Source: Hydractinia symbiolongicarpus (taxonomy: Eukaryota; Cnidaria; Hydrozoa; Anthoathecata; Hydractiniidae). From it: a stretch of 64,000 nucleotides of DNA. Below the pieces are notes generated by a model that searched no databases, was not told the origin of the DNA, and saw nothing but the letters and a program-made list of their open reading frames with translations. This document shows, one piece after another, positions 19,588 through 43,438 of the stretch. The stretch spans positions 9,035,001 through 9,099,000 of the forward strand of contig NC_079888.1 of NCBI RefSeq assembly GCF_029227915.1, in the 5' to 3' direction. The position numbers and the translations under genes were made by a program. Each line of letters begins with the position of its first letter. Within the stretch, counting starts at the first letter, position 1.

Positions 19588-20389
19588 TTAGTAGATTACC
19601 GGAACTCACCAGAACAGAGCTTTGTTTACAATCTCGCTTGTTAAGCTTGTTATATTTGGACGGCCTAAAAATATGAAATCCTAACAAGTACTAGGACGAG
19701 GTTGCCTTTGTTTTGCATCTGCCACAATACAAATGAGAAGCCTTGGGAACGAGACTAAAAAACTAAATCTAGCATATCAAATATATTACATCTGTTGTGA
19801 TATGCATATCAGCATATCAAAATAATTCTTAGATTATCAGGAAAGTCATTAAAATGTCGTGATAAATGTGTTATTAGAATATATTTACAAAACATAAATT
19901 ACAAAAAATAGTAGACGTGTACCCCAACCTACCTTTATAACGAAAGACCTCACAAAACCTAATTGATAAAATGAGAATTAAAGACTAGAATTATTGAAAA
20001 CAAAATAAGACGTCGCCGGGTATTTGCCGCCTTTCCACGACGACATCTTATGGTTGCCTTCATATGAATTCAAGTTCTTTTTAAGAAAAAAGTGGCCGGT
20101 AAAACCTCACAAAAAACAAAACAAGATTTAAAAGCAAAGAATAAATAGAAGGGCTGCATTTTTAGCACAAGTATTCTCTCAGGACTCGACTTTAGCTTAG
20201 CATGATAACTCAAACTTCTGCGGCCGCCAATTCACAGATAACCTTAAAGTTATCACACTAGGAAATAAAGGGTGTCTATCTAAAATACTTGTTAAAAGTA
20301 TTTATTGCCCTGGTCATTTGTGCCTGACCATAGCGTAGTCAATCACTTTTGTGAAAATGATTGGCTAAAAAAAATCGCTAGAGATTCAG

Positions 20390-20512
20390 AAAAGAAATCA
20401 GAAAAAATTCAGAAAGAAATCCAGAAAGAAGAACTCCAAAAAATGTCAGAGAAAAATAGGAAAAAAATTTAAAAAAATTAAAAAAAGTTCAGAAAAAATG
20501 AATAAAGGTAGG
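20390..20512. repeat. purine-rich tract downstream of each array gene (unit 1 example)
   Basis: Irregular repeats of CAGAAAGAAATCCAGAAAG and poly-A lie just past the gene stop. On the transcribed strand this is pyrimidine-rich, and it falls in the likely 3' UTR or transcription-end region. It is long in units 2-5, about 53 bp shorter in units 7-10 and mostly deleted in unit 6, so it accounts for most of the unit length differences. Confidence 0.7.
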
Positions 20513-20526
20513 ACGGGGTAAGGAAA

Positions 20527-21415
20527 TTAGAATTTTTGCATTTCTGCAGCATGCAACTGAAGTAGTTCCTCAACTTCCTCAATCGCAGCCACAACTTTCA
20601 GCTTCTTCTTGGAAACCTTCCTTGGAAAGATTTTGCAAATAAAATTGCTACGCAAAATATTTGTAATTCCAGCACACTTGTTGCGAAGCATTGTGGCGAA
20701 GCTTCTTGTTTGCTCTGTACATTGGATGTTCTTCATATCCATCTCAGCAACTTTTCTTTTTAGGTCTTCAATTGCATCTTGTTGATACGCGTTGGTTACT
20801 TCTAATTCCTTCATTTTGCATTCCATGTTAAAAGCAGAGCGATTCAAGCCATCATTTTTCTTTTTCAAAGCATCGCGTTCACCTTCCACCTTTTCTAACA
20901 CCCTTTCAACTTCCATTCTCTTTACCTTTTCTTTTTCGCATCCTTCAGCAGCTTCTGCAGCCAGCTTTACCACGGGTTTCATTGCTTCTTCAATTATCTC
21001 CGGTATGGCATTAACTTTAGCGCTTAACCGATCCAATTCTTTGTCACATTCCTTTATGTTACCATTAAGGATTTCTTGCAGATGTTTTATCTTCGTTAGA
21101 TGCGTTTTACTGATCTCTTCGCTGTGTTGTCGAAGTTTCTTTTCATCCGCAACAGCTTGAGATATGGATGTCAACTTATCTTCGTAAGCTTCCTTTATCT
21201 CCTGAAAAAATAAGAGTGGATATATCTTTACAGATTGTGGCCAGACACAAAAAACTCTGGGCTCTCTATTAGTTTATATTATGGTAAGTATAGCAAGAAC
21301 TGACGAAAAGGTCAGAGGAAGCGTAGTGACAGAAATAGTTATAACTTTTGTTGAACTGCTTTACCTTTTTCACAGAATCCATACCAACAATATCGTTACT
21401 ATTTTGCCTTTCCAT
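20527..21415 (-). CDS. array copy 1: 241-residue coiled-coil protein, two exons
   Basis: Exon 1 is 21365-21415 (17 codons, MERQNSNDIVGMDSVKK) and ends AAG before a GTAAAG donor. The intron is 163 bp and ends TTATTTTTTCAG. Exon 2 is 20527-21201, opens EIKEAYEDKLTSISQ and ends at TAA. Both junctions are phase 0. An in-frame TAA lies 21 bases before the ATG, so the start is secure. The protein is almost wholly charged helix: a long coiled coil (about residues 45-190), six cysteines (69, 105, 145, 178, 193, 206), a basic patch PRKVSKKKLK near 210-219, and an acidic-leucine end. There is no signal peptide or membrane segment. I do not recognise the family. Copy 1 is the most diverged: Lys130, Met147, Thr153 and Arg183 replace Ile, Ile, Ile and Lys. 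About half of the roughly eight exon changes are synonymous. Confidence 0.8.
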
Positions 21416-21448
21416 TTTAGCGAGTTCCTTTCGTTACTGAGTGTTTGC

Positions 21449-21505
21449 TCAAAGTATAATACGGACAAATTTGACGTCAAATTTGTGTGCACTGTCTTGA
21501 CGTCA
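21449..21505 (-). promoter_or_regulatory. paired CRE palindromes upstream of array copy 1
   Basis: TGACGTCA occurs at 21472-21479 and 21498-21505, 57 and 83 bases upstream of the ATG. Their centres are 26 bp apart, and the nearer one lies inside an 18-bp perfect palindrome (AAATTTGACGTCAAATTT). A TATA-like TATTATACTT lies between them and the ATG. TGACGTCA is the full consensus for CREB/ATF bZIP factors. The same pair lies at the same offset (945 and 971 bases above the stop) in all ten units. Confidence 0.6.
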
Positions 21506-23015
21506 TAGTTAAAAATGGCTACTAAAAGCTTACAGAGGAGTTTGCCAGCTAAATGTACTTAAGGCACCCTTCTACAGAGAGAAGCTAAAGGCGAAATACA
21601 CCTTGGCATGCGAAATGTTTATTAAATATTTAAATGGTAAAAAAACACTTTCCGTTTTCACGTTTGTCAATTGAGAAGCGTGCAAGGGACCCCACAATAA
21701 TATAAAAAAGGAGGTTTTTTATTGTTTGTTTTACTGCCTTGCCAGCTAACGCAGAACAATGCATTGTAGGAACCTTCTCAGACATCCTTGACATGGTACA
21801 CCTTTTTAGGACGGACAAAAAAGGCTATCCCTTAACCTATCTAAAACTGACATTTAAAAGCGGACACTTACAATAAGTAAATCCTCTTTAAGTCGGACAC
21901 TTCTCTAAAGCGGACAAAATCTCTGGTCCTGTAAGTGTTTGCTTTAACGAATTCTCTCCGTATTATATTTCATTACGAATATTCCGCAAAATAGCAGATT
22001 ACCAGAAAGTTATTTTATTGATTTAGTAGATTACCGAAACTCATCAGGAAGAGAGCTTTGTTTACAATCTCGCTAAAGAACTTGTTAAGCTTGTTATATT
22101 TGGACGGCCTAAAAATATAAAATCCAACAAGTACTAGGACGAGGTTGCCTTTGTTTTGCATCTGTCACAATACAAATGAGAAGGCTTGGGAACGAGGTTG
22201 GAGAACTAAATCTAGCATATCAAATATATTACATATGTTGTGATATGCATATCATCAGCATATCAAAATAATTCTTAGATTATCAGGAAAGTCATTAAAA
22301 CGACGTGATAAATGTATTATTAGAATATATTTACAAAACATAAATTACAAAAAATAGTAGACGTGTACCCCACCCTACCTTTATCACGAAAAGACTTCAC
22401 AAAAACCCAATTGATAAAATGAGAATTAAAGACTAGAATTATTGAAAACAACATAAGACGTCACCGGGTATTTGCCGCCTTTCCACGACGACATCTTATG
22501 GCTGTCTACATATAAATTCAAGTTCTTTTAAGAAAAAAATGGCCGGTAAAACCTCACAAAAAACAAAAGAAGATTTAAAAACAAAGAAGAAATAGAAGGG
22601 CTGCATTTTTAGGACAAGTATTCTCTCAGGACTTAACTTTAGCTTAGCATGATAACTCAAACTTCTGTGGCCGCCAATTCACAGATAACCTAAAGTTATC
22701 ACACTAGGAAATAAAGGGTGTCTATCTAAAATACTTGTTAAAAGTATTTATTGCCCTGGTCATTTGTGCCTGACCATAGCGTAGTCAATCACTTTTGTGA
22801 AAGTGATTGGCTAAAAAAAGAATCAGTAGAGATTCAAAAAAAAAATCAGAAAAAATTCAGAAACAAATCCAGAAAGAAAAACTCCAAAAAAATTCAGAAA
22901 GAAATCCAGAAAGAAGAACTCCAAAGAAAATCAGAAAAAAAAAATAGGAAAAAAAATTTAAAAAAGTTAAAAAAAGTTCAGAAAAAATGAATAAAGGTAG
23001 GACGGGGTAAGGAAA

Positions 23016-23904
23016 TTAGAATTTTTGCATTTCTGCAGCATGCAACTGAAGTAGCTCTTCAACTTCCTCAATCGCAGCCACAACTTTCAGTTTCTTCTTG
23101 GAAACCTTCCTTGGAAAGATTTTGCAAATAAAATTGCTACGCAAAATATTTGTAATTCCAGCACACTTGTTGCGAAGCATTGTGGCGAAGCTTTTTGTTT
23201 GCTCTGTACATTGGATGTTCTTCATATCCATCTCAGCAACTTTTCTTTTTAGGTCTTCAATTGCATCTTGTTGATACGCGTTGATTACTTCTAATTCTTT
23301 GATTTTGCATTCCATGTTAAAAGCAGAGCGATTCAAGCCATCATTTTTCTTTATCAAAGCATCGCGTTCACCTTCCACCTTTTCTAACACCCTTTCAACT
23401 TCCATTCTCTTTACCTTTTCTTTTTCGCATCCTTCAGCAGCTTCTGCAGCCAGCTTTACCACGGGTTTCATTGCTTCTTCAATTATCTCCGGTATGGCAT
23501 TAACTTTAGCGCTTAACCGATCCAATTCTTTGTCACATTCCTTTATGTTACCATTAAGGATTTCTTGCAGATGTTTTATCTTCGTTAGATGCGTTTTACT
23601 GATCTCTTCGCTGTGTTGTCGAAGTTTCTTTTCATCCGCAACAGCTTGAGATATGGATGTCAACTTATCTTCGTAAGCTTCCTTTATCTCCTGAAAAAAT
23701 AAGAGTGGATATATCTTTACAGATTGTGGCCAGACACAAAAAACTCTGGGCTCTCTATTAGTTTATATTATGGTAAGTATAGCAAGAACTGACGAAAAGG
23801 TCAGAGGAAGCGTAGTGACAGAAATAGTTATAACTTTTGTTGAACTGCTTTACCTTTTTCACAGAATCCATACCAACAATATCGTTACTATTTTGCCTTT
23901 CCAT
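23016..23904 (-). CDS. array copy 2: 241-residue coiled-coil protein
   Basis: Exons are 23854-23904 and 23016-23690, with the same splice sites and phase as copy 1. This is the consensus protein (Ile130, Ile147, Ile153, Lys183) shared exactly with copies 3, 4, 6, 8, 9 and 10. It is followed downstream by the long form of the purine-rich tract. Confidence 0.8.
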
Positions 23905-25505
23905 TTTAGCGAGTTCCTTTCGTTACTGAGTGTTTGCTCAAAGTATAATACGGACAAATTTGACGTCAAATTTGTGTGCACTGTCTTGACGTCATAGTTA
24001 AAAATGGCTACTAAAAGCTTACAGAGGAGTTTGCCAGCTAAATGTACTTAAGGCACCCTTCTACAGAGAGAAGCTAAAGGCGAAATACACCTTGGCATGC
24101 GAAATGTTTATTAAATATTTAAATGGTAAAAAAACACTTTCCGTTTTCACGTTTGTCAATTGAGAAGCGTGCAAGGGACCCCACAATAATATAAAAAAGG
24201 AGGTTCTTTATTGTTTGTTTTACTGCCTTGCCAGCTAACGCAGAACAATGCATTGTAGGAACCTTCTCGGACATCCTTGACATGGTACACCTTTTTAGGA
24301 CGGACAAAAAAGGCTATCCCTTAACCTATCTAAAACTGACATTTAAAAGCGGACACTTACAATAAGTAAATCCTCTTTAAGTCGGACACTTCTCTAAAGC
24401 GGACAAAATCTCTGGTCCTGTAAGTGTTTGCTTTAACGAATTCTCTCCGTATTATATTTCATTACGAATATTCCGCAAAATAGCAGATTACCAGAAAGTT
24501 ATTTTATTGATTTAGTAGATTACCGGAACTCATCAGGAAGAGAGCTTTGTTTACAATCTCGCTAAAGAACTTGTTAAGCTTGTTATATTTGGACGGCCTA
24601 AAAATATAAAATCCAACAAGTACTAGGACGAGGTTGCCTTTGTTTTGCATCTGTCACAATACAAATGAGAAGGCTTGGGAACGAGGTTGGAGAACTAAAT
24701 CTAGCATATCAAATATATTACATATGTTGTGATATGCATATCATCAGCATATCAAAATAATTCTTAGATTATCAGGAAAGTCATTAAAACGACGTGATAA
24801 ATGTATTATTAGAATATATTTACAAAACATAAATTACAAAAAATAGTAGACGTGTACCCCACCCTACCTTTATCACGAAAAGACTTTACAAAAACCCAAT
24901 TGATAAAATGAGAATTAAAGACTAGAATTATTGAAAACAACATAAGACGTCACCGGGTATTTGCCGCCTTTCCACGACGACATCTTATGGCTGTCTACAT
25001 ATAAATTCAAGTTCTTTTAAGAAAAAAATGGCCGGTAAAACCTCACAAAAAACAAAAGAAGATTTAAAAACAAAGAATAAATAGAAGGGCTGCATTTTTA
25101 GGACAAGTATTCTCTCAGGACTTAACTTTAGCTTAGCATGATAACTCAAACTTCTGTGGCCGCCAATTCACAGATAACCTAAAGTTATCACACTAGGAAA
25201 TAAAGGGTGTCTATCTAAAATACTTGTTAAAAGTATTTATTGCCCTGGTCATTTGTGCCTGACCATAGCGTAGTCAATCACTTTTGTGAAAGTGATTGGC
25301 TAAAATAAGAATTAGTAGAGATTCAGAAAAAAAATCAGAAAAAATTCAGAAACAAATCCAGAAAGAAAAACTCCAAAAAAAATTCAGAAAGAAATCCAGA
25401 AAGAAGAACTCCAAAGAAAATCAGAAAAAAAAAATAGGAAAAAAAATTTAAAAAAGTTAAAAAAAGTTCAGAAAAAATGAATAAAGGTAGGACGGGGTAA
25501 GGAAA

Positions 25506-26394
25506 TTAGAATTTTTGCATTTCTGCAGCATGCAACTGAAGTAGCTCTTCAACTTCCTCAATCGCAGCCACAACTTTCAGTTTCTTCTTGGAAACCTTCC
25601 TTGGAAAGATTTTGCAAATAAAATTGCTACGCAAAATATTTGTAATTCCAGCACACTTGTTGCGAAGCATTGTGGCGAAGCTTTTTGTTTGCTCTGTACA
25701 TTGGATGTTCTTCATATCCATCTCAGCAACTTTTCTTTTTAGGTCTTCAATTGCATCTTGTTGATACGCGTTGATTACTTCTAATTCTTTGATTTTGCAT
25801 TCCATGTTAAAAGCAGAGCGATTCAAGCCATCATTTTTCTTTATCAAAGCATCGCGTTCACCTTCCACCTTTTCTAACACCCTTTCAACTTCCATTCTCT
25901 TTACCTTTTCTTTTTCGCATCCTTCAGCAGCTTCTGCAGCCAGCTTTACCACGGGTTTCATTGCTTCTTCAATTATCTCCGGTATGGCATTAACTTTAGC
26001 GCTTAACCGATCCAATTCTTTGTCACATTCCTTTATGTTACCATTAAGGATTTCTTGCAGATGTTTTATCTTCGTTAGATGCGTTTTACTGATCTCTTCG
26101 CTGTGTTGTCGAAGTTTCTTTTCATCCGCAACAGCTTGAGATATGGATGTCAACTTATCTTCGTAAGCTTCCTTTATCTCCTGAAAAAATAAGAGTGGAT
26201 ATATCTTTACAGATTGTGGCCAGACACAAAAAACTCTGGGCTCTCTATTAGTTTATATTATGGTAAGTATAGCAAGAACTGACGAAAAGGTCAGAGGAAG
26301 CGTAGTGACAGAAATAGTTATAACTTTTGTTGAACTGCTTTACCTTTTTCACAGAATCCATACCAACAATATCGTTACTATTTTGCCTTTCCAT
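25506..26394 (-). CDS. array copy 3: 241-residue coiled-coil protein
   Basis: Exons are 26344-26394 and 25506-26180. The protein is identical to copy 2. The unit differs from unit 2 by only a handful of bases outside the gene. Confidence 0.8.
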
Positions 26395-27995
26395 TTTAGC
26401 GAGTTCCTTTCGTTACTGAGTGTTTGCTCAAAGTATAATACGGACAAATTTGACGTCAAATTTGTGTGCACTGTCTTGACGTCATAGTTAAAAATGGCTA
26501 CTAAAAGCTTACAGAGGAGTTTGCCAGCTAAATGTACTTAAGGCACCCTTCTACAGAGAGAAGCTAAAGGCGAAATACACCTTGGCATGCGAAATGTTTA
26601 TTAAATATTTAAATGGTAAAAAAACACTTTCCGTTTTCACGTTTGTCAATTGAGAAGCGTGCAAGGGACCCCACAATAATATAAAAAAGGAGGTTCTTTA
26701 TTGTTTGTTTTACTGCCTTGCCAGCTAACGCAGAACAATGCATTGTAGGAACCTTCTCGGACATCCTTGACATGGTACACCTTTTTAGGACGGACAAAAA
26801 AGGCTATCCCTTAACCTATCTAAAACTGACATTTAAAAGCGGACACTTACAATAAGTAAATCCTCTTTAAGTCGGACACTTCTCTAAAGCGGACAAAATC
26901 TCTGGTCCTGTAAGTGTTTGCTTTAACGAATTCTCTCCGTATTATATTTCATTACGAATATTCCGCAAAATAGCAGATTACCAGAAAGTTATTTTATTGA
27001 TTTAGTAGATTACCGGAACTCATCAGGAAGAGAGCTTTGTTTACAATCTCGCTAAAGAACTTGTTAAGCTTGTTATATTTGGACGGCCTAAAAATATAAA
27101 ATCCAACAAGTACTAGGACGAGGTTGCCTTTGTTTTGCATCTGTCACAATACAAATGAGAAGGCTTGGGAACGAGGTTGGAGAACTAAATCTAGCATATC
27201 AAATATATTACATATGTTGTGATATGCATATCATCAGCATATCAAAATAATTCTTAGATTATCAGGAAAGTCATTAAAACGACGTGATAAATGTATTATT
27301 AGAATATATTTACAAAACATAAATTACAAAAAATAGTAGACGTGTACCCCACCCTACCTTTATCACGAAAAGACTTTACAAAAACCCAATTGATAAAATG
27401 AGAATTAAAGACTAGAATTATTGAAAACAACATAAGACGTCACCGGGTATTTGCCGCCTTTCCACGACGACATCTTATGGCTGTCTACATATAAATTCAA
27501 GTTCTTTTAAGAAAAAAATGGCCGGTAAAACCTCACAAAAAACAAAAGAAGATTTAAAAACAAAGAATAAATAGAAGGGCTGCATTTTTAGGACAAGTAT
27601 TCTCTCAGGACTTAACTTTAGCTTAGCATGATAACTCAAACTTCTGTGGCCGCCAATTCACAGATAACCTAAAGTTATCACACTAGGAAATAAAGGGTGT
27701 CTATCTAAAATACTTGTTAAAAGTATTTATTGCCCTGGTCATTTGTGCCTGACCATAGCGTAGTCAATCACTTTTGTGAAAGTGATTGGCTAAAATAAGA
27801 ATTAGTAGAGATTCAGAAAAAAAATCAGAAAAAATTCAGAAACAAATCCAGAAAGAAAAACTCCAAAAAAAATTCAGAAAGAAATCCAGAAAGAAGAACT
27901 CCAAAGAAAATCAGAAAAAAAAAATAGGAAAAAAAATTTAAAAAAGTTAAAAAAAGTTCAGAAAAAATGAATAAAGGTAGGACGGGGTAAGGAAA

Positions 27996-28884
27996 TTAGA
28001 ATTTTTGCATTTCTGCAGCATGCAACTGAAGTAGCTCTTCAACTTCCTCAATCGCAGCCACAACTTTCAGTTTCTTCTTGGAAACCTTCCTTGGAAAGAT
28101 TTTGCAAATAAAATTGCTACGCAAAATATTTGTAATTCCAGCACACTTGTTGCGAAGCATTGTGGCGAAGCTTTTTGTTTGCTCTGTACATTGGATGTTC
28201 TTCATATCCATCTCAGCAACTTTTCTTTTTAGGTCTTCAATTGCATCTTGTTGATACGCGTTGATTACTTCTAATTCTTTGATTTTGCATTCCATGTTAA
28301 AAGCAGAGCGATTCAAGCCATCATTTTTCTTTATCAAAGCATCGCGTTCACCTTCCACCTTTTCTAACACCCTTTCAACTTCCATTCTCTTTACCTTTTC
28401 TTTTTCGCATCCTTCAGCAGCTTCTGCAGCCAGCTTTACCACGGGTTTCATTGCTTCTTCAATTATCTCCGGTATGGCATTAACTTTAGCGCTTAACCGA
28501 TCCAATTCTTTGTCACATTCCTTTATGTTACCATTAAGGATTTCTTGCAGATGTTTTATCTTCGTTAGATGCGTTTTACTGATCTCTTCGCTGTGTTGTC
28601 GAAGTTTCTTTTCATCCGCAACAGCTTGAGATATGGATGTCAACTTATCTTCGTAAGCTTCCTTTATCTCCTGAAAAAATAAGAGTGGATATATCTTTAC
28701 AGATTGTGGCCAAACACAAAAAACTCTGGGCTCTCTATTAGTTTATATTATGGTAAGTATAGCAAGAACTGACGAAAAGGTCAGAGGAAGCGTAGTGACA
28801 GAAATAGTTATAACTTTTGTTGAACTGCTTTACCTTTTTCACAGAATCCATACCAACAATATCGTTACTATTTTGCCTTTCCAT
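27996..28884 (-). CDS. array copy 4: 241-residue coiled-coil protein
   Basis: Exons are 28834-28884 and 27996-28670. The protein is identical to copy 2. One intron base differs (GGCCAAACAC for GGCCAGACAC on the plus strand near 28,712). Confidence 0.8.
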
Positions 28885-30485
28885 TTTAGCGAGTTCCTTT
28901 CGTTACTGAGTGTTTGCTCAAAGTATAATACGGACAAATTTGACGTCAAATTTGTGTGCACTGTCTTGACGTCATAGTTAAAAATGGCTACTAAAAGCTT
29001 ACAGAGGAGTTTGCCAGCTAAATGTACTTAAGGCACCCTTCTACAGAGAGAAGCTAAAGGCGAAATACACCTTGGCATGCGAAATGTTTATTAAATATTT
29101 AAATGGTAAAAAAACACTTTCCGTTTTCACGTTTGTCAATTGAGAAGCGTGCAAGGGACCCCACAATAATATAAAAAAGGAGGTTCTTTATTGTTTGTTT
29201 TACTGCCTTGCCAGCTAACGCAGAACAATGCATTGTAGGAACCTTCTCGGACATCCTTGACATGGTACACCTTTTTAGGACGGACAAAAAAGGCTATCCC
29301 TTAACCTATCTAAAACTGACATTTAAAAGCGGACACTTACAATAAGTAAATCCTCTTTAAGTCGGACACTTCTCTAAAGCGGACAAAATCTCTGGTCCTG
29401 TAAGTGTTTGCTTTAACGAATTCTCTCCGTATTATATTTCATTACGAATATTCCGCAAAATAGCAGATTACCAGAAAGTTATTTTATTGATTTAGTAGAT
29501 TACCGGAACTCATCAGGAAGAGAGCTTTGTTTACAATCTCGCTAAAGAACTTGTTAAGCTTGTTATATTTGGACGGCCTAAAAATATAAAATCCAACAAG
29601 TACTAGGACGAGGTTGCCTTTGTTTTGCATCTGTCACAATACAAATGAGAAGGCTTGGGAACGAGGTTGGAGAACTAAATCTAGCATATCAAATATATTA
29701 CATATGTTGTGATATGCATATCATCAGCATATCAAAATAATTCTTAGATTATCAGGAAAGTCATTAAAACGACGTGATAAATGTATTATTAGAATATATT
29801 TACAAAACATAAATTACAAAAAATAGTAGACGTGTACCCCACCCTACCTTTATCACGAAAAGACTTTACAAAAACCCAATTGATAAAATGAGAATTAAAG
29901 ACTAGAATTATTGAAAACAACATAAGACGTCACCGGGTATTTGCCGCCTTTCCACGACGACATCTTATGGCTGTCTACATATAAATTCAAGTTCTTTTAA
30001 GAAAAAAATGGCCGGTAAAACCTCACAAAAAACAAAAGAAGATTTAAAAACAAAGAATAAATAGAAGGGCTGCATTTTTAGGACAAGTATTCTCTCAGGA
30101 CTTAACTTTAGCTTAGCATGATAACTCAAACTTCTGTGGCCGCCAATTCACAGATAACCTAAAGTTATCACACTAGGAAATAAAGGGTGTCTATCTAAAA
30201 TACTTGTTAAAAGTATTTATTGCCCTGGTCATTTGTGCCTGACCATAGCGTAGTCAATCACTTTTGTGAAAGTGATTGGCTAAAATAAGAATTAGTAGAG
30301 ATTCAGAAAAAAAATCAGAAAAAATTCAGAAACAAATCCAGAAAGAAAAACTCCAAAAAAAATTCAGAAAGAAATCCAGAAAGAAGAACTCCAAAGAAAA
30401 TCAGAAAAAAAAAATAGGAAAAAAAATTTAAAAAAGTTAAAAAAAGTTCAGAAAAAATGAATAAAGGTAGGACGGGGTAAGGAAA

Positions 30486-31374
30486 TTAGAATTTTTGCAT
30501 TTCTGCAGCATGCAACTGAAGTAGCTCTTCAACTTCCTCAATCGCAGTCACAACTTTCAGTTTCTTCTTGGAAACCTTCCTTGGAAAGATTTTGCAAATA
30601 AAATTGCTACGCAAAATATTTGTAATTCCAGCACACTTGTTGCGAAGCATTGTGGCGAAGCTTTTTGTTTGCTCTGTACATTGGATGTTCTTCATATCCA
30701 TCTCAGCAACTTTTCTTTTTAGGTCTTCAATTGCATCTTGTTGATACGCGTTGATTACTTTTAATTCTTTGATTTTGCATTCCATGTTAAAAGCAGAGCG
30801 ATTCAAGCCATCATTTTTCTTTATCAAAGCATCGCGTTCACCTTCCACCTTTTCTAACACCCTTTCAACTTCCATTCTCTTTACCTTTTCTTTTTCGCAT
30901 CCTTCAGCAGCTTCTGCAGCCAGCTTTACCACGGGTTTCATTGCTTCTTCAATTATCTCCGGTATGGCATTAACTTTAGCGCTTAACCGATCCAATTCTT
31001 TGTCACATTCCTTTATGTTACCATTAAGGATTTCTTGCAGATGTTTTATCTTCGTTAGATGCGTTTTACTGATCTCTTCGCTGTGTTGTCGAAGTTTCTT
31101 TTCATCCGCAACAGCTTGAGATATGGATGTCAACTTATCTTCGTAAGCTTCCTTTATCTCCTGAAAAAATAAGAGTGGATATATCTTTACAGATTGTGGC
31201 CAGACACAAAAAACTCTGGGCTCTCTATTAGTTTATATTATGGTAAGTATAGCAAGAACTGACGAAAAGGTCAGAGGAAGCGTAGTGACAGAAATAGTTA
31301 TAACTTTTGTTGAACTGCTTTACCTTTTTCACAGAATCCATACCAACAATATCGTTACTATTTTGCCTTTCCAT
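30486..31374 (-). CDS. array copy 5: 241-residue coiled-coil protein, two substitutions
   Basis: Exons are 31324-31374 and 30486-31160. Two replacements are private to this copy: Glu151Lys inside the coiled coil and Ala222Thr near the C-terminus. A base between the two CREs also differs (31,453). Its upstream flank carries right-half markers while its gene and 3' flank are of the left-half type, so it sits at the boundary between the two unit types. Confidence 0.8.
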
Positions 31375-32467
31375 TTTAGCGAGTTCCTTTCGTTACTGAG
31401 TGTTTGCTCAAAGTATAATACGGACAAATTTGACGTCAAATTTGTGTGCACTTTCTTGACGTCATAGTTAAAAATGGCTACTAAAAGCTTACAGAGGAGT
31501 TTGCCAGCTAAATGTACTTAAGGCACCCTTCTACAGAGAGAAGCTAAAGGCGAAATACACCTTGGCATGCGAAATGTTTATTAAATATTTAAATGGTAAA
31601 AAAACACTTTCCGTTTTCACGTTTGTCAATTGAGAAGCGTGCAAGGGACCCCACAATAATATAAAAAAGGAGGTTCTTTATTGTTTGCTTTACTGCCTTG
31701 CCAGCTAACGCAGAACAATGCATTGTAGGAACCTTCTCGGACATCCTTGACATGGTACACCTTTTTAGGACGGACAAAAAAGGCTATCCCTTAACCTATC
31801 TAAAACTGACATTTAAAAGCGGACACTTACAATAAGTAAATCCTCTTTAAGTCGGACACTTCTCTAAAGCGGACAAAATCTCTGTTCCTGTAAGTGTTTG
31901 CTTTAACGAATTCTCTCCGTATTATATTTCATTACGAATATTCCGCAAAATAGCAGATTACCAGAAAGTTATTTTATTGATTTTGTAGATTACCGGAACT
32001 CATCAGGAAGAGAGCTTTGTTTACAATCTCGCTAAAGAACTTGTTAAGCTTGTTATATTTGGACGGCCTAAAAATATAAAATCCAACAAGTACTAGGACG
32101 AGGTTGCCTTTGTTTTGCATCTGTCACAATACAAATGAGAAGGCTTGGGAACGAGGTTGGAGAACTAAATCTAGCATATCAAATATATTACATATGTTGT
32201 GATATGCATATCATCAGCATATCAAAATAATTCTTAGATTATCAGGAAAGTCATTAAAACGACGTGATAAATGTATTATTAGAATATATTTACAAAACAT
32301 AAATTACAAAAAATAGTAGACGTGTACCCCACCCTACCTTTATCACGAAAAGACTTCACAAAAACCCAATTGATAAAATGAGAATTAAAGACTAGAATTA
32401 TTGAAAACAACATAAGAATTAAGAAAAAGTTCTGAAAAATGGATAAAGGTAGGACGGGGTAAGGAAA

Positions 32468-33356
32468 TTAGAATTTTTGCATTTCTGCAGCATGCAACTG
32501 AAGTAGCTCTTCAACTTCCTCAATCGCAGCCACAACTTTCAGTTTCTTCTTGGAAACCTTCCTTGGAAAGATTTTGCAAATAAAATTGCTACGCAAAATA
32601 TTTGTAATTCCAGCACACTTGTTGCGAAGCATTGTGGCGAAGCTTTTTGTTTGCTCTGTACATTGGATGTTCTTCATATCCATCTCAGCAACTTTTCTTT
32701 TTAGGTCTTCAATTGCATCTTGTTGATACGCGTTGATTACTTCTAATTCTTTGATTTTGCATTCCATGTTAAAAGCAGAGCGATTCAAGCCATCATTTTT
32801 CTTTATCAAAGCATCGCGTTCACCTTCCACCTTTTCTAACACCCTTTCAACTTCCATTCTCTTTACCTTTTCTTTTTCGCATCCTTCAGCAGCTTCTGCA
32901 GCCAGCTTTACCACGGGTTTCATTGCTTCTTCAATTATCTCCGGTATGGCATTAACTTTAGCGCTTAACCGATCCAATTCTTTGTCACATTCCTTTATGT
33001 TACCATTAAGGATTTCTTGCAGATGTTTTATCTTCGTTAGATGCGTTTTACTGATCTCTTCGCTGTGTTGTCGAAGTTTCTTTTCATCCGCAACAGCTTG
33101 AGATATGGATGTCAACTTATCTTCGTAAGCTTCCTTTATCTCCTGAAAAAATAAGAGTGGATATATCTTTACAGATTGTGGCCAGACACAAAAAACTCTG
33201 GGCTCTCTATTAGTTTATATTATGGTAAGTATAGCAAGAACTGACGAAAAGGTCAGAGGAAGCGTAGTGACAGAAATAGTTATAACTTTTGTTGAACTGC
33301 TTTACCTTTTTCACAGAATCCATACCAACAATATCGTTACTATTTTGCCTTTCCAT
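32468..33356 (-). CDS. array copy 6: 241-residue coiled-coil protein with truncated 3' flank
   Basis: Exons are 33306-33356 and 32468-33142, and the protein is the consensus. Downstream of the stop, about 455 bp present in the neighbouring 2437-bp units is missing. The join near 32,417 reads CATAAGAATTAAG, with a shared AGA at both break points. The deletion removes the usual purine-rich tract and the TTTATT (AATAAA on the gene strand) found about 230 bp downstream of other copies, so its transcript end may differ. Confidence 0.8.
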
Positions 33357-34904
33357 TTTAGCGAGTTCCTTTCGTTACTGAGTGTTTGCTCAAAGTATAA
33401 TACGGACAAATTTGACGTCAAATTTGTGTGCACTGTCTTGACGTCATAGTTAAAAATGGCTACTAAAAGCTTACAGAGGAGTTTGCCAGCTAAATGTACT
33501 TAAGGCACCCTTCTACAGAGAGAAGCTAAAGGCGAAATACACCTTGGCATGCGAAATGTTTATTAAATATTTAAATGGTAAAAAAACACTTTCCGTTTTC
33601 ACGTTTGTCAATTGAGAAGCGTGCAAGGGACCCCACAATAATATAAAAAAGGAGGTGCTTTATTGTTTGTTTTACTGCCTGACGAGCTAACGCAGAACAA
33701 TGCATTGTAGGAACCTTCTCGGACATCCTTGACATGGTACACCTTTTTAGGACGGACAAAAAAGGCTATCCCTTAACCTATCTAAAACTGACATTTAAAA
33801 GCGGACACTTACAATAAGTAAATCCTCTTTAAGTCGGACACTTCTCTAAAGCGGACAAAATCTCTGTTCCTGTAAGTGTTTGCTTTAACGAATTCTCTCC
33901 GTATTATATTTCATTACGAATATTCCGCAAAATAGCAGATTACCAGAAAGTTATTTTATTGATTTTGTAGATTACCGGAACTCATCAGGAAGAGAGCTTT
34001 GTTTACAATCTCGCTAAAGAACTTGTTAAGCTTGTTATATTTGGACGGCCTAAAAATATAAAATCCAACAAGTACTAGGACGAGGTTGCCTTTGTTTTGC
34101 ATCTGTCACAATACAAATGAGAAGGCTTGGGAACGAGGTTGGAGAACTAAATCTAGCATATCAAATATATTACATATGTTGTGATATGCATATCATCAGC
34201 ATATCAAAATAATTCTTAGATTATCAGGAAAGTCATTAAAACGACGTGATAAATGTATTATTAGAATATATTTACAAAACATAAATTACAAAAAATAGTA
34301 GACGTGTACCCCACCCTACCTTTATCACGAAAAGACTTCACAAAAACCCAATTGATAAAATGAGAATTAAAGACTAGAATTATTGAAAACAACATAAGAC
34401 GTCACCGGGTATTTGCCGCCTTTCCACGACGACATCTTATGGCTGTCTACATATAAATTCAAGTTCTTTTAAGAAAAAAATGGCCGGTAAAACCTCACAA
34501 AAAACAAAAGAAGATTTAAAAACAAAGAATAAATAGAAGGGCTGCATTTTTAGGACAAGTATTCTCTCAGGACTTAACTTTAGCTTAGCATGATAACTCA
34601 AACTTCTGTGGCCGCCAATTCACAGATAACCTAAAGTTATCACACTAGGAAATAAAGGGTGTCTATCTAAAATACTTGTTAAAAGTATTTATTGCCCTGG
34701 TCATTTGTGCCTGAACATAGCGTAGTCAATCACTTTTGTGAAAGTGATTGGCTAAAAAAAGAATCAGTAGAGATTCAAAAAAAAATCAGAAAAAATTCAG
34801 AAAGAAATCCAGAAAGAAAAACTCCAAAAAAATTCAGAAAGAAATCCAGAAAGAATTAAGAAAAAGTTCTGAAAAATGGATAAAGGTAGGACGGGGTAAG
34901 GAAA

Positions 34905-35793
34905 TTAGAATTTTTGCATTTCTGCAGCATGCAACTGAAGTAGCTCTTCAACTTCCTCAATCGCAGCCACAACTTTCAGTTTCTTCTTGGAAACCTTCCT
35001 TGGAAAGATTTTGCAAATAAAATTGCTACGCAAAATATTTGTAATTCCAGCACACTTGTTGCGAAGCATTGTGGCGAAGCTTTTTGTTTGCTCTGTACAT
35101 TGGATGTTCTGCATATCCATCTCAGCAACTTTTCTTTTTAGGTCTTCAATTGCATCTTGTTGATACGCGTTGATTACTTCTAATTCTTTGATTTTGCATT
35201 CCATGTTAAAAGCAGAGCGATTCAAGCCATCATTTTTCTTTATCAAAGCATCGCGTTCACCTTCCACCTTTTCTAACACCCTTTCAACTTCCATTCTCTT
35301 TACCTTTTCTTTTTCGCATCCTTCAGCAGCTTCTGCAGCCAGCTTTACCACGGGTTTCATTGCTTCTTCAATTATCTCCGGTATGGCATTAACTTTAGCG
35401 CTTAACCGATCCAATTCTTTGTCACATTCCTTTATGTTACCATTAAGGATTTCTTGCAGATGTTTTATCTTCGTTAGATGCGTTTTACTGATCTCTTCGC
35501 TGTGTTGTCGAAGTTTCTTTTCATCCGCAACAGCTTGAGATATGGATGTCAACTTATCTTCGTAAGCTTCCTTTATCTCCTGAAAAAATAAGAGTGGATA
35601 TATCTTTACAGATTGTGGCCAGACACAAAAAACTCTGGGCTCTCTATTAGTTTATATTATGGTAAGTATAGCAAGAACTGACGAAAAGGTCAGAGGAAGC
35701 GTAGTGACAGAAATAGTTATAACTTTTGTTGAACTGCTTTACCTTTTTCACAGAATCCATACCAACAATATCGTTACTATTTTGCCTTTCCAT
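34905..35793 (-). CDS. array copy 7: 241-residue coiled-coil protein, Lys174Gln
   Basis: Exons are 35743-35793 and 34905-35579. One private replacement, Lys174Gln, is present. The unit is mosaic: its 3' flank is the short right-half type, while the region upstream of its promoter up to about 36,304 is the left-half type. Confidence 0.8.
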
Positions 35794-37341
35794 TTTAGCG
35801 AGTTCCTTTCGTTACTGAGTGTTTGCTCAAAGTATAATACGGACAAATTTGACGTCAAATTTGTGTGCACTGTCTTGACGTCATAGTTAAAAATGGCTAC
35901 TAAAAGCTTACAGAGGAGTTTGCCAGCTAAATGTACTTAAGGCACCCTTCTACAGAGAGAAGCTAAAGGCGAAATACACCTTGGCATGCGAAATGTTTAT
36001 TAAATATTTAAATGGTAAAAAAACACTTTCCGTTTTCACGTTTGTCAATTGAGAAGCGTGCAAGGGACCCCACAATAATATAAAAAAGGAGGTTCTTTAT
36101 TGTTTGTTTTACTGCCTTGCCAGCTAACGCAGAACAATGCATTGTAGGAACCTTCTCGGACATCCTTGACATGGTACACCTTTTTAGGACGGACAAAAAA
36201 GGCTATCCCTTAACCTATCTAAAACTGACATTTAAAAGCGGACACTTACAATAAGTAAATCCTCTTTAAGTCGGACACTTCTCTAAAGCGGACAAAATCT
36301 CTGGTCCTGTAAGTGTTTGCTTTAACGAATTCTCTCCGTATTATATTTCATTACGAATATTCCGCAAAATAGCAGATTACCAGAAAGTTATTTTATTGAT
36401 TTTGTAGATTACCGGAACTCATCAGGAAGAGAGCTTTGTTTACAATCTCGCTAAAGAACTTGTTAAGCTTGTTATATTTGGACGGCCTAAAAATATAAAA
36501 TCCAACAAGTACTAGGACGAGGTTGCCTTTGTTTTGCATCTGTCACAATACAAATGAGAAGGCTTGGGAACGAGGTTGGAGAACTAAATCTAGCATATCA
36601 AATATATTACATATGTTGTGATATGCATATCATCAGCATATCAAAATAATTCTTAGATTATCAGGAAAGTCATTAAAACGACGTGATAAATGTATTATTA
36701 GAATATATTTACAAAACATAAATTACAAAAAATAGTAGACGTGTACCCCACCCTACCTTTATCACGAAAAGACTTCACAAAAACCCAATTGATAAAATGA
36801 GAATTAAAGACTAGAATTATTGAAAACAACATAAGACGTCACCGGGTATTTGCCGCCTTTCCACGACGACATCTTATGGCTGTCTACATATAAATTCAAG
36901 TTCTTTTCAGAAAAAAATGGCCGGTAAAACCTCACAAAAAACAAAAGAAGATTTAAAAACAAAGAATAAATAGAAGGGCTGCATTTTTAGGACAAGTATT
37001 CTCTCAGGACTTAACTTTAGCTTAGCATGATAACTCAAACTTCTGTGGCCGCCAATTCACAGATAACCTAAAGTTATCACACTAGGAAATAAAGGGTGTC
37101 TATCTAAAATACTTGTTAAAAGTATTTATTGCCCTGGTCATTTGTGCCTGAACATAGCGTAGTCAATCACTTTTGTGAAAGTGATTGGCTAAAAAAAGAA
37201 TCAGTAGAGATTCAAAAAAAAATCAGAAAAAATTCAGAAAGAAATCCAGAAAGAAAAACTCCAAAAAAATTCAGAAAGAAATCCAGAAAGAATTAAGAAA
37301 AAGTTCTGAAAAATGGATAAAGGTAGGACGGGGTAAGGAAA

Positions 37342-38230
37342 TTAGAATTTTTGCATTTCTGCAGCATGCAACTGAAGTAGCTCTTCAACTTCCTCAATCG
37401 CAGCCACAACTTTCAGTTTCTTCTTGGAAACCTTCCTTGGAAAGATTTTGCAAATAAAATTGCTACGCAAAATATTTGTAATTCCAGCACACTTGTTGCG
37501 AAGCATTGTGGCGAAGCTTTTTGTTTGCTCTGTACATTGGATGTTCTTCATATCCATCTCAGCAACTTTTCTTTTTAGGTCTTCAATTGCATCTTGTTGA
37601 TACGCGTTGATTACTTCTAATTCTTTGATTTTGCATTCCATGTTAAAAGCAGAGCGATTCAAGCCATCATTTTTCTTTATCAAAGCATCGCGTTCACCTT
37701 CCACCTTTTCTAACACCCTTTCAACTTCCATTCTCTTTACCTTTTCTTTTTCGCATCCTTCAGCAGCTTCTGCAGCCAGCTTTACCACGGGTTTCATTGC
37801 TTCTTCAATTATCTCCGGTATGGCATTAACTTTAGCGCTTAACCGATCCAATTCTTTGTCACATTCCTTTATGTTACCATTAAGGATTTCTTGCAGATGT
37901 TTTATCTTCGTTAGATGCGTTTTACTGATCTCTTCGCTGTGTTGTCGAAGTTTCTTTTCATCCGCAACAGCTTGAGATATGGATGTCAACTTATCTTCGT
38001 AAGCTTCCTTTATCTCCTGAAAAAATAAGAGTGGATATATCTTTACAGATTGTGGCCAGACACAAAAAACTCTGGGCTCTCTATTAGTTTATATTATGGT
38101 AAGTATAGCAAGAACTGACGAAAAGGTCAGAGGAAGCGTAGTGACAGAAATAGTTATAACTTTTGTTGAACTGCTTTACCTTTTTCACAGAATCCATACC
38201 AACAATATCGTTACTATTTTGCCTTTCCAT
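37342..38230 (-). CDS. array copy 8: 241-residue coiled-coil protein
   Basis: Exons are 38180-38230 and 37342-38016. The protein is the consensus and the unit is wholly right-half type. Confidence 0.8.
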
Positions 38231-39778
38231 TTTAGCGAGTTCCTTTCGTTACTGAGTGTTTGCTCAAAGTATAATACGGACAAATTTGACGTCAAATTTG
38301 TGTGCACTGTCTTGACGTCATAGTTAAAAATGGCTACTAAAAGCTTACAGAGGAGTTTGCCAGCTAAATGTACTTAAGGCACCCTTCTACAGAGAGAAGC
38401 TAAAGGCGAAATACACCTTGGCATGCGAAATGTTTATTAAATATTTAAATGGTAAAAAAACACTTTCCGTTTTCACGTTTGTCAATTGAGAAGCGTGCAA
38501 GGGACCCCACAATAATATAAAAAAGGAGGTGCTTTATTGTTTGTTTTACTGCCTGACGAGCTAACGCAGAACAATGCATTGTAGGAACCTTCTCGGACAT
38601 CCTTGACATGGTACACCTTTTTAGGACGGACAAAAAAGGCTATCCCTTAACCTATCTAAAACTGACATTTAAAAGCGGACACTTACAATAAGTAAATCCT
38701 CTTTAAGTCGGACACTTCTCTAAAGCGGACAAAATCTCTGTTCCTGTAAGTGTTTGCTTTAACGAATTCTCTCCGTATTATATTTCATTACGAATATTCC
38801 GCAAAATAGCAGATTACCAGAAAGTTATTTTATTGATTTTGTAGATTACCGGAACTCATCAGGAAGAGAGCTTTGTTTACAATCTCGCTAAAGAACTTGT
38901 TAAGCTTGTTATATTTGGACGGCCTAAAAATATAAAATCCAACAAGTACTAGGACGAGGTTGCCTTTGTTTTGCATCTGTCACAATACAAATGAGAAGGC
39001 TTGGGAACGAGGTTGGAGAACTAAATCTAGCATATCAAATATATTACATATGTTGTGATATGCATATCATCAGCATATCAAAATAATTCTTAGATTATCA
39101 GGAAAGTCATTAAAACGACGTGATAAATGTATTATTAGAATATATTTACAAAACATAAATTACAAAAAATAGTAGACGTGTACCCCACCCTACCTTTATC
39201 ACGAAAAGACTTCACAAAAACCCAATTGATAAAATGAGAATTAAAGACTAGAATTATTGAAAACAACATAAGACGTCACCGGGTATTTGCCGCCTTTCCA
39301 CGACGACATCTTATGGCTGTCTACATATAAATTCAAGTTCTTTTCAGAAAAAAATGGCCAGTAAAACCTCACAAAAAACAAAAGAAGATTTAAAAACAAA
39401 GAATAAATAGAAGGGCTGCATTTTTAGGACAAGTATTCTCTCAGGACTTAACTTTAGCTTAGCATGATAACTCAAACTTCTGTGGCCGCCAATTCACAGA
39501 TAACCTAAAGTTATCACACTAGGAAATAAAGGGTGTCTATCTAAAATACTTGTTAAAAGTATTTATTGCCCTGGTCATTTGTGCCTGAACATAGCGTAGT
39601 CAATCACTTTTGTGAAAGTGATTGGCTAAAAAAAGAATCAGTAGAGATTCAAAAAAAAATCAGAAAAAATTCAGAAAGAAATCCAGAAAGAAAAACTCCA
39701 AAAAAATTCAGAAAGAAATCCAGAAAGAATTAAGAAAAAGTTCTGAAAAATGGATAAAGGTAGGACGGGGTAAGGAAA

Positions 39779-40667
39779 TTAGAATTTTTGCATTTCTGCA
39801 GCATGCAACTGAAGTAGCTCTTCAACTTCCTCAATCGCAGCCACAACTTTCAGTTTCTTCTTGGAAACCTTCCTTGGAAAGATTTTGCAAATAAAATTGC
39901 TACGCAAAATATTTGTAATTCCAGCACACTTGTTGCGAAGCATTGTGGCGAAGCTTTTTGTTTGCTCTGTACATTGGATGTTCTTCATATCCATCTCAGC
40001 AACTTTTCTTTTTAGGTCTTCAATTGCATCTTGTTGATACGCGTTGATTACTTCTAATTCTTTGATTTTGCATTCCATGTTAAAAGCAGAGCGATTCAAG
40101 CCATCATTTTTCTTTATCAAAGCATCGCGTTCACCTTCCACCTTTTCTAACACCCTTTCAACTTCCATTCTCTTTACCTTTTCTTTTTCGCATCCTTCAG
40201 CAGCTTCTGCAGCCAGCTTTACCACGGGTTTCATTGCTTCTTCAATTATCTCCGGTATGGCATTAACTTTAGCGCTTAACCGATCCAATTCTTTGTCACA
40301 TTCCTTTATGTTACCATTAAGGATTTCTTGCAGATGTTTTATCTTCGTTAGATGCGTTTTACTGATCTCTTCGCTGTGTTGTCGAAGTTTCTTTTCATCC
40401 GCAACAGCTTGAGATATGGATGTCAACTTATCTTCGTAAGCTTCCTTTATCTCCTGAAAAAATAAGAGTGGATATATCTTTACAGATTGTGGCCAGACAC
40501 AAAAAACTCTGGGCTCTCTATTAGTTTATATTATGGTAAGTATAGCAAGAACTGACGAAAAGGTCAGAGGAAGCGTAGTGACAGAAATAGTTATAACTTT
40601 TGTTGAACTGCTTTACCTTTTTCACAGAATCCATACCAACAATATCGTTACTATTTTGCCTTTCCAT
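39779..40667 (-). CDS. array copy 9: 241-residue coiled-coil protein
   Basis: Exons are 40617-40667 and 39779-40453. The protein is the consensus. The 3' flank has GGCCAG for GGCCGG near 39,355 on the plus strand. Confidence 0.8.
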
Positions 40668-42215
40668 TTTAGCGAGTTCCTTTCGTTACTGAGTGTTTGC
40701 TCAAAGTATAATACGGACAAATTTGACGTCAAATTTGTGTGCACTGTCTTGACGTCATAGTTAAAAATGGCTACTAAAAGCTTACAGAGGAGTTTGCCAG
40801 CTAAATGTACTTAAGGCACCCTTCTACAGAGAGAAGCTAAAGGCGAAATACACCTTGGCATGCGAAATGTTTATTAAATATTTAAATGGTAAAAAAACAC
40901 TTTCCGTTTTCACGTTTGTCAATTGAGAAGCGTGCAAGGGACCCCACAATAATATAAAAAAGGAGGTGCTTTATTGTTTGTTTTACTGCCTGACGAGCTA
41001 ACGCAGAACAATGCATTGTAGGAACCTTCTCGGACATCCTTGACATGGTACACCTTTTTAGGACGGACAAAAAAGGCTATCCCTTAACCTATCTAAAACT
41101 GACATTTAAAAGCGGACACTTACAATAAGTAAATCCTCTTTAAGTCGGACACTTCTCTAAAGCGGACAAAATCTCTGTTCCTGTAAGTGTTTGCTTTAAC
41201 GAATTCTCTCCGTATTATATTTCATTACGAATATTCCGCAAAATAGCAGATTACCAGAAAGTTATTTTATTGATTTTGTAGATTACCGGAACTCATCAGG
41301 AAGAGAGCTTTGTTTACAATCTCGCTAAAGAACTTGTTAAGCTTGTTATATTTGGACGGCCTAAAAATATAAAATCCAACAAGTACTAGGACGAGGTTGC
41401 CTTTGTTTTGCATCTGTCACAATACAAATGAGAAGGCTTGGGAACGAGGTTGGAGAACTAAATCTAGCATATCAAATATATTACATATGTTGTGATATGC
41501 ATATCATCAGCATATCAAAATAATTCTTAGATTATCAGGAAAGTCATTAAAACGACGTGATAAATGTATTATTAGAATATATTTACAAAACATAAATTAC
41601 AAAAAATAGTAGACGTGTACCCCACCCTACCTTTATCACGAAAAGACTTCACAAAAACCCAATTGATAAAATGAGAATTAAAGACTAGAATTATTGAAAA
41701 CAACATAAGACGTCACCGGGTATTTGCCGCCTTTCCACGACGACATCTTATGGCTGTCTACATATAAATTCAAGTTCTTTTAAGAAAAAAATGGCCGGTA
41801 AAACCTCACAAAAAACAAAAGAAGATTTAAAAACAAAGAATAAATAGAAGGGCTGCATTTTTAGGACAAGTATTCTCTCAGGACTTAACTTTAGCTTAGC
41901 ATGATAACTCAAACTTCTGTGGCCGCCAATTCACAGATAACCTAAAGTTATCACACTAGGAAATAAAGGGTGTCTATCTAAAATACTTGTTAAAAGTATT
42001 TATTGCCCTGGTCATTTGTGCCTGAACATAGCGTAGTCAATCACTTTTGTGAAAGTGATTGGCTAAAAAAAGAATCAGTAGAGATTCAAAAAAAAATCAG
42101 AAAAAATTCAGAAAGAAATCCAGAAAGAAAAACTCCAAAAAAATTCAGAAAGAAATCCAGAAAGAATTAAGAAAAAGTTCTGAAAAATGGATAAAGGTAG
42201 GACGGGGTAAGGAAA

Positions 42216-43104
42216 TTAGAATTTTTGCATTTCTGCAGCATGCAACTGAAGTAGCTCTTCAACTTCCTCAATCGCAGCCACAACTTTCAGTTTCTTCTTG
42301 GAAACCTTCCTTGGAAAGATTTTGCAAATAAAATTGCTACGCAAAATATTTGTAATTCCAGCACACTTGTTGCGAAGCATTGTGGCGAAGCTTTTTGTTT
42401 GCTCTGTACATTGGATGTTCTTCATATCCATCTCAGCAACTTTTCTTTTTAGGTCTTCAATTGCATCTTGTTGATACGCGTTGATTACTTCTAATTCTTT
42501 GATTTTGCATTCCATGTTAAAAGCAGAGCGATTCAAGCCATCATTTTTCTTTATCAAAGCATCGCGTTCACCTTCCACCTTTTCTAACACCCTTTCAACT
42601 TCCATTCTCTTTACCTTTTCTTTTTCGCATCCTTCAGCAGCTTCTGCAGCCAGCTTTACCACGGGTTTCATTGCTTCTTCAATTATCTCCGGTATGGCAT
42701 TAACTTTAGCGCTTAACCGATCCAATTCTTTGTCACATTCCTTTATGTTACCATTAAGGATTTCTTGCAGATGTTTTATCTTCGTTAGATGCGTTTTACT
42801 GATCTCTTCGCTGTGTTGTCGAAGTTTCTTTTCATCCGCAACAGCTTGAGATATGGATGTCAACTTATCTTCGTAAGCTTCCTTTATCTCCTGAAAAAAT
42901 AAGAGTGGATATATCTTTACAGATTGTGGCCAGACACAAAAAACTCTGGGCTCTCTATTAGTTTATATTATGGTAAGTATAGCAAGAACTGACGAAAAGG
43001 TCAGAGGAAGCGTAGTGACAGAAATAGTTATAACTTTTGTTGAACTGCTTTACCTTTTTCACAGAATCCATACCAACAATATCGTTACTATTTTGCCTTT
43101 CCAT
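42216..43104 (-). CDS. array copy 10: 241-residue coiled-coil protein at the array edge
   Basis: Exons are 43054-43104 and 42216-42890, with the consensus protein. Its promoter keeps both CREs but has one change beside the TATA-like stretch (ATAATGCGG for ATAATACGG at 43,146-43,154). The unit breaks off 334 bp upstream of its ATG, so this is the outermost copy and all sequence needed for the other nine promoters must lie within that distance if it is active. Confidence 0.8.
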
Positions 43105-43438
43105 TTTAGCGAGTTCCTTTCGTTACTGAGTGTTTGCTCAAAGTATAATGCGGACAAATTTGACGTCAAATTTGTGTGCACTGTCTTGACGTCATAGTTA
43201 AAAATGGCTACTAAAAGCTTACAGAGGAGTTTGCCAGCTAAATGTACTTAAGGCACCCTTCTACAGAGAGAAGCTAAAGGCGAAATACACCTTGGCATGC
43301 GAAATGTTTATTAAATATTTAAATGGTAAAAAAACACTTTCCGTTTTCACGTTTGTCAATTGAGAAGCGTGCAAGGGACCCCACAATAATATAAAAAAGG
43401 AGGTGCTTTATTGTTTGTTTTACTGCCTGACGAGCTAA

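Follow-up and report, generated by a model that had tools for sequence, protein, structure and literature searches.

A ten-copy tandem array of a two-exon gene for a predicted coiled-coil protein in Hydractinia symbiolongicarpus

A stretch of 64,000 nucleotides from the hydrozoan Hydractinia symbiolongicarpus (RefSeq assembly GCF_029227915.1, contig NC_079888.1, positions 9,035,001 to 9,099,000 of the forward strand), hereafter the window and numbered from its first letter, contains a tandem array in which every unit carries the same two-exon gene for a predicted coiled-coil protein. A preliminary description, made from the sequence alone, had claimed ten copies; in a self-comparison, a 2.5-kb piece of the window aligns to itself head to tail, and the array indeed consists of ten head-to-tail units with an open gene in each (10/10), all on the minus strand. 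The window holds 0 N bases, and the array is without gaps. The array, referred to below as the C14 array, and its gene copies are as follows.

19588 to 43653, genes on the minus strand: tandem array (C14 array) of ten units, starting at 19588, 22022, 24511, 27001, 29491, 31981, 33963, 36400, 38837 and 41274
20527 to 21415, minus strand: copy 1 (exon 1 21415-21365, intron 21364-21202, exon 2 21201-20527), 241 amino acids; the most diverged copy, with 8 coding changes
23016 to 23904, minus strand: copy 2, 241 amino acids, identical to the consensus
25506 to 26394, minus strand: copy 3, 241 amino acids, identical to the consensus; the reference unit of the analysis
27996 to 28884, minus strand: copy 4, 241 amino acids, coding sequence identical to the consensus, one intron change
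30486 to 31374, minus strand: copy 5, 241 amino acids, two amino-acid changes
32468 to 33356, minus strand: copy 6, 241 amino acids, identical to the consensus; in a 1,982-bp unit whose deletion at about 32418 takes most of the conserved 3' stretch
34905 to 35793, minus strand: copy 7, 241 amino acids, one amino-acid change
37342 to 38230, minus strand: copy 8, 241 amino acids, identical to the consensus
39779 to 40667, minus strand: copy 9, 241 amino acids, identical to the consensus
42216 to 43104, minus strand: copy 10, 241 amino acids, identical to the consensus

Each copy consists of an exon 1 of 51 nt (17 codons), a 163-bp GT-AG intron that begins with GTAAAG and ends with TTTCAG, and an exon 2 of 675 nt (224 codons and the stop). 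This structure had been proposed beforehand, together with open frames in all copies and seven amino-acid differences in total, and all three points hold: the exon-intron layout recurs in 10/10 copies, each of which is open across 241 residues, and the seven differences fall in copy 1 (4), copy 5 (2) and copy 7 (1), the proteins of 7/10 copies being identical. The coding differences from the consensus number 11 (7 nonsynonymous and 4 synonymous), 8 of which lie in copy 1; 4/8 of these are synonymous, in agreement with the earlier remark that about half of the changes in the oldest copy are. Two database proteins support the two-exon splice model, as far as sequence comparison can tell. The NCBI protein P0003 equals the two-exon model of a copy on C12 (L006) in 241/241 residues, and P0002, from a 1,715-nt contig whose source is given as 'lgn' (read as Logan), is identical in 214/230 residues to the protein of a second array, on C7, and crosses the exon 1/exon 2 junction without the intron, which fits a spliced transcript.

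The protein has 241 residues (240-241 in the family), a mass of 27.6 kDa and an isoelectric point of 7.6, and contains 14% lysine and 14% glutamate. Its coiled-coil nature, claimed in the preliminary description, has been borne out by a hydrophobic period of 3.54 (P = 0.003 versus 1000 shuffles) and by a nearly all-helical structure model, with helices at residues 3-81, 83-206 and 215-240 and a mean predicted local distance difference test score (pLDDT) of 71.6. The product is thus predicted, with moderate confidence in the model, to be an alpha-helical, mostly coiled-coil rod; as a basic C-terminal segment, FICKIFPRKxSKKKL, is conserved, a structural role in the cytoskeleton or the nucleus might be guessed at from the rod shape and this tail. 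For the window protein, no Pfam match attained the cut-off of its family, the matches to SlyX, KIF21A and Baculo_PEP_C lying below the curated cut-offs where such cut-offs were shown, and comparison with solved structures, by sequence and by fold, gave nothing convincing. A search of 5.8 billion proteins returned three proteins only, P0002, P0003 and P0001, the last a fragment from the window itself, and no other family; a second search with an alignment as the query, in which 7,996 candidates were scored, returned the same three proteins. Since the protein search needs shared five-residue words and distant relatives can escape it, the family has so far been named only from Hydractinia within the reach of such searches. 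A viral element was also considered, and no relative of the protein was found in viral contigs. At NCBI, one paralogue is labelled golgin subfamily A member 6-like protein 25 (Hydractinia symbiolongicarpus), and no golgin family, and hence no golgin homology, was found among the 21 Pfam families matched at E <= 0.1 by 11 family members. The gene had been called undescribed; literature searches by term listed no paper on the family, though a paralogue has this golgin-like name.

The units had been put at 2.44-2.49 kb, which is wrong for unit 6. The distances between successive ATG codons are, in order, 2489, 2490, 2490, 2490, 1982, 2437, 2437, 2437 and 2437, and two types of unit can be told apart, units 2-5 and units 6-10, unit 6 (1,982 bp) having a deletion of its own of roughly 455-510 bp at about 32418, which leaves 183/546 bases of the conserved 3' stretch and an open coding sequence. 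There are 53 substitutions in unit 1, 7-14 in units 2-9 and 87 in unit 10 (counting about 57 nominal bases that lie outside the homology), the pattern that is expected when exchange homogenises the middle of an array and leaves the edge units most diverged. The unit homology continues, at 81-85%, past position 43438, where the array had been thought to end, to about 43653. Copies of gene plus spacer that stand head to tail, are far more alike within an array than between loci and diverge at the edges are those of a tandem array with concerted evolution. The assembly was made from PacBio HiFi reads and Hi-C data, with a HiFi read N50 of 13.2 kb (PMC10411563). That ten copies were misassembled from fewer might be suggested by this read length, which does not span 24 kb, and by some neighbouring units being very few bases apart; but the absence of gaps, the two unit types, the deletion specific to one unit and the diverged edge units argue against such an artefact, as does the occurrence of RNA-gene tandem arrays in the separately made H. 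echinata assembly as well (PMC11067881), and we regard it as very improbable.

The array is not unique in the genome. When the protein of exon 2 was searched against the species' own genome, 66 matches were obtained (82/82 candidates scored), 33 of which are stop-free over residues 1-224, 2-224 or 1-223: ten in the C14 array, fifteen in an array on C7, and eight single copies, one each on C4 and C3 and three each on C14 and C12. The other 33 comprise an edge copy of the C7 array that is open only from residue 23, and 32 matches that are partial or contain stops. A DNA search of the same genome, with 39/90 candidates scored, gave at least 58 matches; these genome-wide counts are lower bounds, and the family matches, many of them decayed, lie on 13 contigs. 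The second array (C7:9123339-9158964) has 16 copies with a period of 2277 bp, 15/16 with exon 1 and a full exon 2, and belongs to a different subfamily; its unit aligns to that of the C14 array over window 24774-26581, with an 84-column piece further out. A full-length exon 2 is open in 25/26 copies of the two arrays. In the single C4 copy (L001), exon 2 is open, but exon 1, read from its first ATG, is out of frame. Ampliconic coiled-coil genes that are multi-copy and lineage-restricted are known from mouse testis, namely Slx/Sly and Speer, the former being sex-linked. The Hydractinia family is likewise multi-copy, lineage-restricted and coiled-coil, and unlike Slx/Sly it has no match on C1 or C2 among those reported by the protein and DNA searches. 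Hydractinia has an XY system (PMC9926710), and chromosome 1 of the assembly, in which scaffold numbers follow length, most likely represents the sex chromosome (PMC10411563). If C1 is taken as chromosome 1, as the falling lengths of C3-C14 suggest, no sex linkage of the family is found, and sex-chromosome drive is therefore disfavoured.

The sequences at the edges of the C14 array bear on its origin.

19270 to 19526, no strand assigned: left flank, with homology to the corresponding flank of the C4 single copy L001
43672 to 43773, no strand assigned: dispersed repeat of about 100 bp at the right array edge, with many sites in the genome according to a genome search
43782 to 44267, no strand assigned: right flank, whose best genome match elsewhere adjoins the C4 single copy

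In a comparison among the family loci, the left flank (19270-19526) scores 105.5 against L001 (shuffled maximum 19), and the right flank (43775-44383) scores 221 (shuffled maximum 20). In a genome search with the right flank, for which 40/727 candidates were scored, the best match of 43782-44267 after itself is C4:23718631-23719131, beside the L001 unit and 177 bp beyond the C4 match of the family DNA search; a piece inside the right flank has weak matches elsewhere on C14, and weak matches to parts of the flank also lie next to L017 and L025, two decayed members of the family. The C4 locus is thus an un-amplified counterpart that shares the unit and both flanks, and its copy differs from those on C14 by 0.40 synonymous substitutions per synonymous site (dS) over exon 2. 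Most simply, these alignments suggest a duplication between C4 and C14 followed by multiplication in place on C14; it is possible instead that an array on C4 contracted.

The same flanks bear on whether the unit is a selfish or mobile element, a transposon-like unit whose own protein or ends drive its spread. The many decayed matches on 13 contigs would suit such an element, and so would the limits of the conserved core, which are similar in most of 11 aligned loci. But the array flanks are both common to the C4 locus, so the C14 array is not a mobile insertion; the tract ends differ among three young C12 copies, which likewise argues against mobility; the limits of the core are those of a transcription unit, the spacers being saturated except between the closest loci; neither a transposase nor a polymerase domain is found in the 241-residue protein (the unit's remaining frames, which are short, were not scanned); and each of the 40 matches reported for the 3' stretch falls at a family locus, though at one of these, L022, no coding match accompanies it in the DNA examined. 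We hold this origin to be highly unlikely. As for a transposable element in the strict sense, neither fixed termini nor an insertion without shared flanks was found, target-site duplications not having been looked for. Within the spacer of the array unit, window 26845-26946 and 27056-27129 match many sites in the genome, apparently as small dispersed repeats.

Around the coding sequence, noncoding parts of the unit are conserved as well; in the reference unit they are as follows.

26395 to 26505, minus strand: upstream region of copy 3, read as promoter, with two TGACGTCA motifs (CRE-like, for cyclic AMP response element), one GCCATTTT motif (YY1-like) and one TATA-like motif
24770 to 25309, minus strand: conserved noncoding stretch of ~540 bp downstream of the copy 3 stop, about 200-740 bp past it
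24944 to 24986, minus strand: inverted repeat in the 3' stretch, with a 12-bp stem and a few compensatory changes

Good conservation across the 11 aligned loci is confined to window 24770-26505; the spacers show saturation in all comparisons but those with L001 and those between C12 copies. The short conserved region upstream of the gene may be read as a promoter. Upstream of the ATG, one to three copies of TGACGTCA, which we take to be CRE-like, occur in 9/9 intact loci (L001 included, L005 left out), GCCATTTT, taken to be YY1-like, in 7/9 and a TATA-like motif in 8/9, counts that have no chance control; the CRE-like motif is kept upstream in 4/6 decayed loci. Downstream, the ~540-bp stretch is read as a long 3' untranslated region (UTR). 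Divided into five pieces (24790-25309), it shows 0.06-0.30 substitutions per site against L001-L004, where dS is 0.31-0.40, and 0.15-0.42 against C7, L006 and L008, where dS is 0.89-1.5. How strongly it is constrained is uncertain, since the intron is also below dS in several comparisons with older loci (0.23-0.61 versus dS 0.31-1.5), and the stretch in the young C12 copies, at 0.03-0.17, is not clearly below dS (0.14-0.16); the contrast may come in part from the dS estimate or the alignment. Synonymous change is low over the last 60 codons as well.

One could go further and suppose that the ~540-bp stretch is itself selected, as a structured RNA or regulatory element, and that coding and noncoding parts are amplified together in the arrays, perhaps for use in the germline or embryo, a supposition that we find improbable. 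A genome search with the stretch gave its 40 matches with 40/50 candidates scored, and L022 lacks a coding match in the DNA stretch examined. L005 retains 217/546 bases of it with an open coding sequence. Terminal branches of the stretch average 0.086 for the nine intact copies and 0.174 for the six decayed ones, those of exon 2 being 0.068 and 0.240; its branch is longer than that of exon 2 in 2/6 decayed copies (L014 and L016) and shorter in 4/6, and in a midpoint-rooted tree the decayed copies are no longer from root to tip than the intact ones. Its independence from the coding sequence is therefore ambiguous. In the stem of the inverted repeat 92.1% of cells pair, versus 70.0% at best when it is slid, and its covariation score beats 499/500 shuffles; only 2/12 pairs have changed on both sides, a number reached by 270/500 shuffles, and the covariation term of RNAalifold is only -0.71 kcal/mol, so that the covariation, among related sequences, is suggestive only. 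A UGUAnAUW motif, presumably Pumilio-like, is present in 9/9 intact and 4/6 decayed loci (no chance control). In the window, Rfam yielded no match at gathering score; the only permissive match of the unit to a known RNA gene, to a long noncoding RNA model, has 20.1 bits against a cut-off of 60. A further small gene, considered near 25034 on the plus strand, was rejected, its ATG and frame not being conserved.

The coding sequences were compared by the ratio of nonsynonymous to synonymous divergence (dN/dS, Nei-Gojobori) among ten family members. It lies at 0.15-0.39 in 44/45 pairs, the exception (0.71) being a pair at dS 0.022, and from these values between paralogues the family is under coding constraint and its gene functional, to judge by sequence. 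The changes within the arrays number 7 nonsynonymous to 4 synonymous among the ten C14 copies and 4 to 0 among 15 C7 copies (the broken edge copy left out), together 11 to 4, or 73% nonsynonymous, versus 81% expected without selection; against the neutral expectation, P is 0.14 for the C14 array and 0.048 for unit 1 alone. The earlier view that open frames and synonymous changes argue for function thus stands between paralogues and is not supported within the arrays, where the open frames of single copies may mostly reflect their youth.

Taken together, these results are best explained, with a probability of about 0.6, by a two-exon coiled-coil gene family whose C14 array grew in place and whose arrays raise the dose of one protein. 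The C14 array would have grown by unequal crossing-over and gene conversion, and the C14 and C7 arrays would have arisen independently; each unit would form an entire gene, from its short promoter to its long, conserved 3' UTR, so that multiplying it would raise the dose of its product. Several points weigh against this account. The predicted template modelling score (pTM) of the structure model is 0.28, and no PDB fold matched the model at E <= 0.001. P0002 could derive from a processed copy instead of a spliced transcript. Ten is the assembled copy number and not certain, the HiFi N50 of 13.2 kb being below the 24 kb of the array. The difference between the spacers of the two arrays would not prove independent origins, since the spacers of loci this distant are saturated anyway. 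That dose is the selected property is something we infer, and changes within the arrays look neutral, with no purifying selection shown.

The extra copies may therefore be carried along as passengers in a genome where tandem repeats abound, the family being functional, its arrays by-products of unequal exchange and most array copies redundant. Such neutrality accords with the 11 to 4 changes, with unit 6 and L005 having lost much of the conserved 3' stretch, and with tandem repeats, as defined by Tandem Repeats Finder (TRF), making up 15.7% of the assembly, a figure that is not a count of coding arrays (PMC11067881). The 25/26 open copies of exon 2 and the arraying of two subfamilies speak against it, although in young arrays both could be due to chance. 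We judge it unlikely on balance, yet a serious rival to dosage, which appears to be the best mechanism. An orphan family that exists as a single copy on C4 and as arrays on C14 and C7 offers a clean natural comparison in a tractable animal, in which one can ask whether a taxon-restricted gene is amplified for dose or because the genome makes arrays.

That such arrays are rare outside histones and rRNA-like loci, as had been held, is a poor yardstick here, given the repeat content of the genome and its noncoding RNA arrays with kilobase spacers (PMC11067881). The C14 unit differs from the latter in that it encodes a protein and contains no Rfam family at gathering score. Another known case is the canonical histone array of H. 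echinata, in the same genus, with protein-coding head-to-tail units of 5,998 bp in about 700 copies per haplotype (PMC5011920); its genes, however, are single-exon members of a universal family, and the unit also holds 5S, U1, U2 and tRNA genes, whereas the C14 array repeats, in ten copies, one intron-bearing gene of no known family. The yeast CUP1 arrays (PMC4232551) are similar in that a single-copy gene became a tandem array, and differ in encoding a copper-binding metallothionein with a known use. A cell atlas also reports a tandem cluster of Prisilkin-like genes (PMC11876637). To the tandem arrays reported in Hydractinia for RNAs and histones, the present family adds one of an orphan protein gene that has an intron.

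In the rest of the window, the array lies between two paralogous genes with signal-peptide-like starts, at 13579-14337 (minus strand) and 46072-46824 (minus strand), which are 31% identical over 223 columns and show no Pfam match above cut-off; of the 26 matches that the gene at 46072-46824 has in a genome search, 18 fall on C14. At 49842-52502 (minus strand), neighbouring frames match SH3 and RhoGAP domains above cut-off and probably represent exons of a single RhoGAP-type gene, and a degenerate 22-bp tandem repeat with the core ACTGCGCAGTAG occupies 9383-9700.

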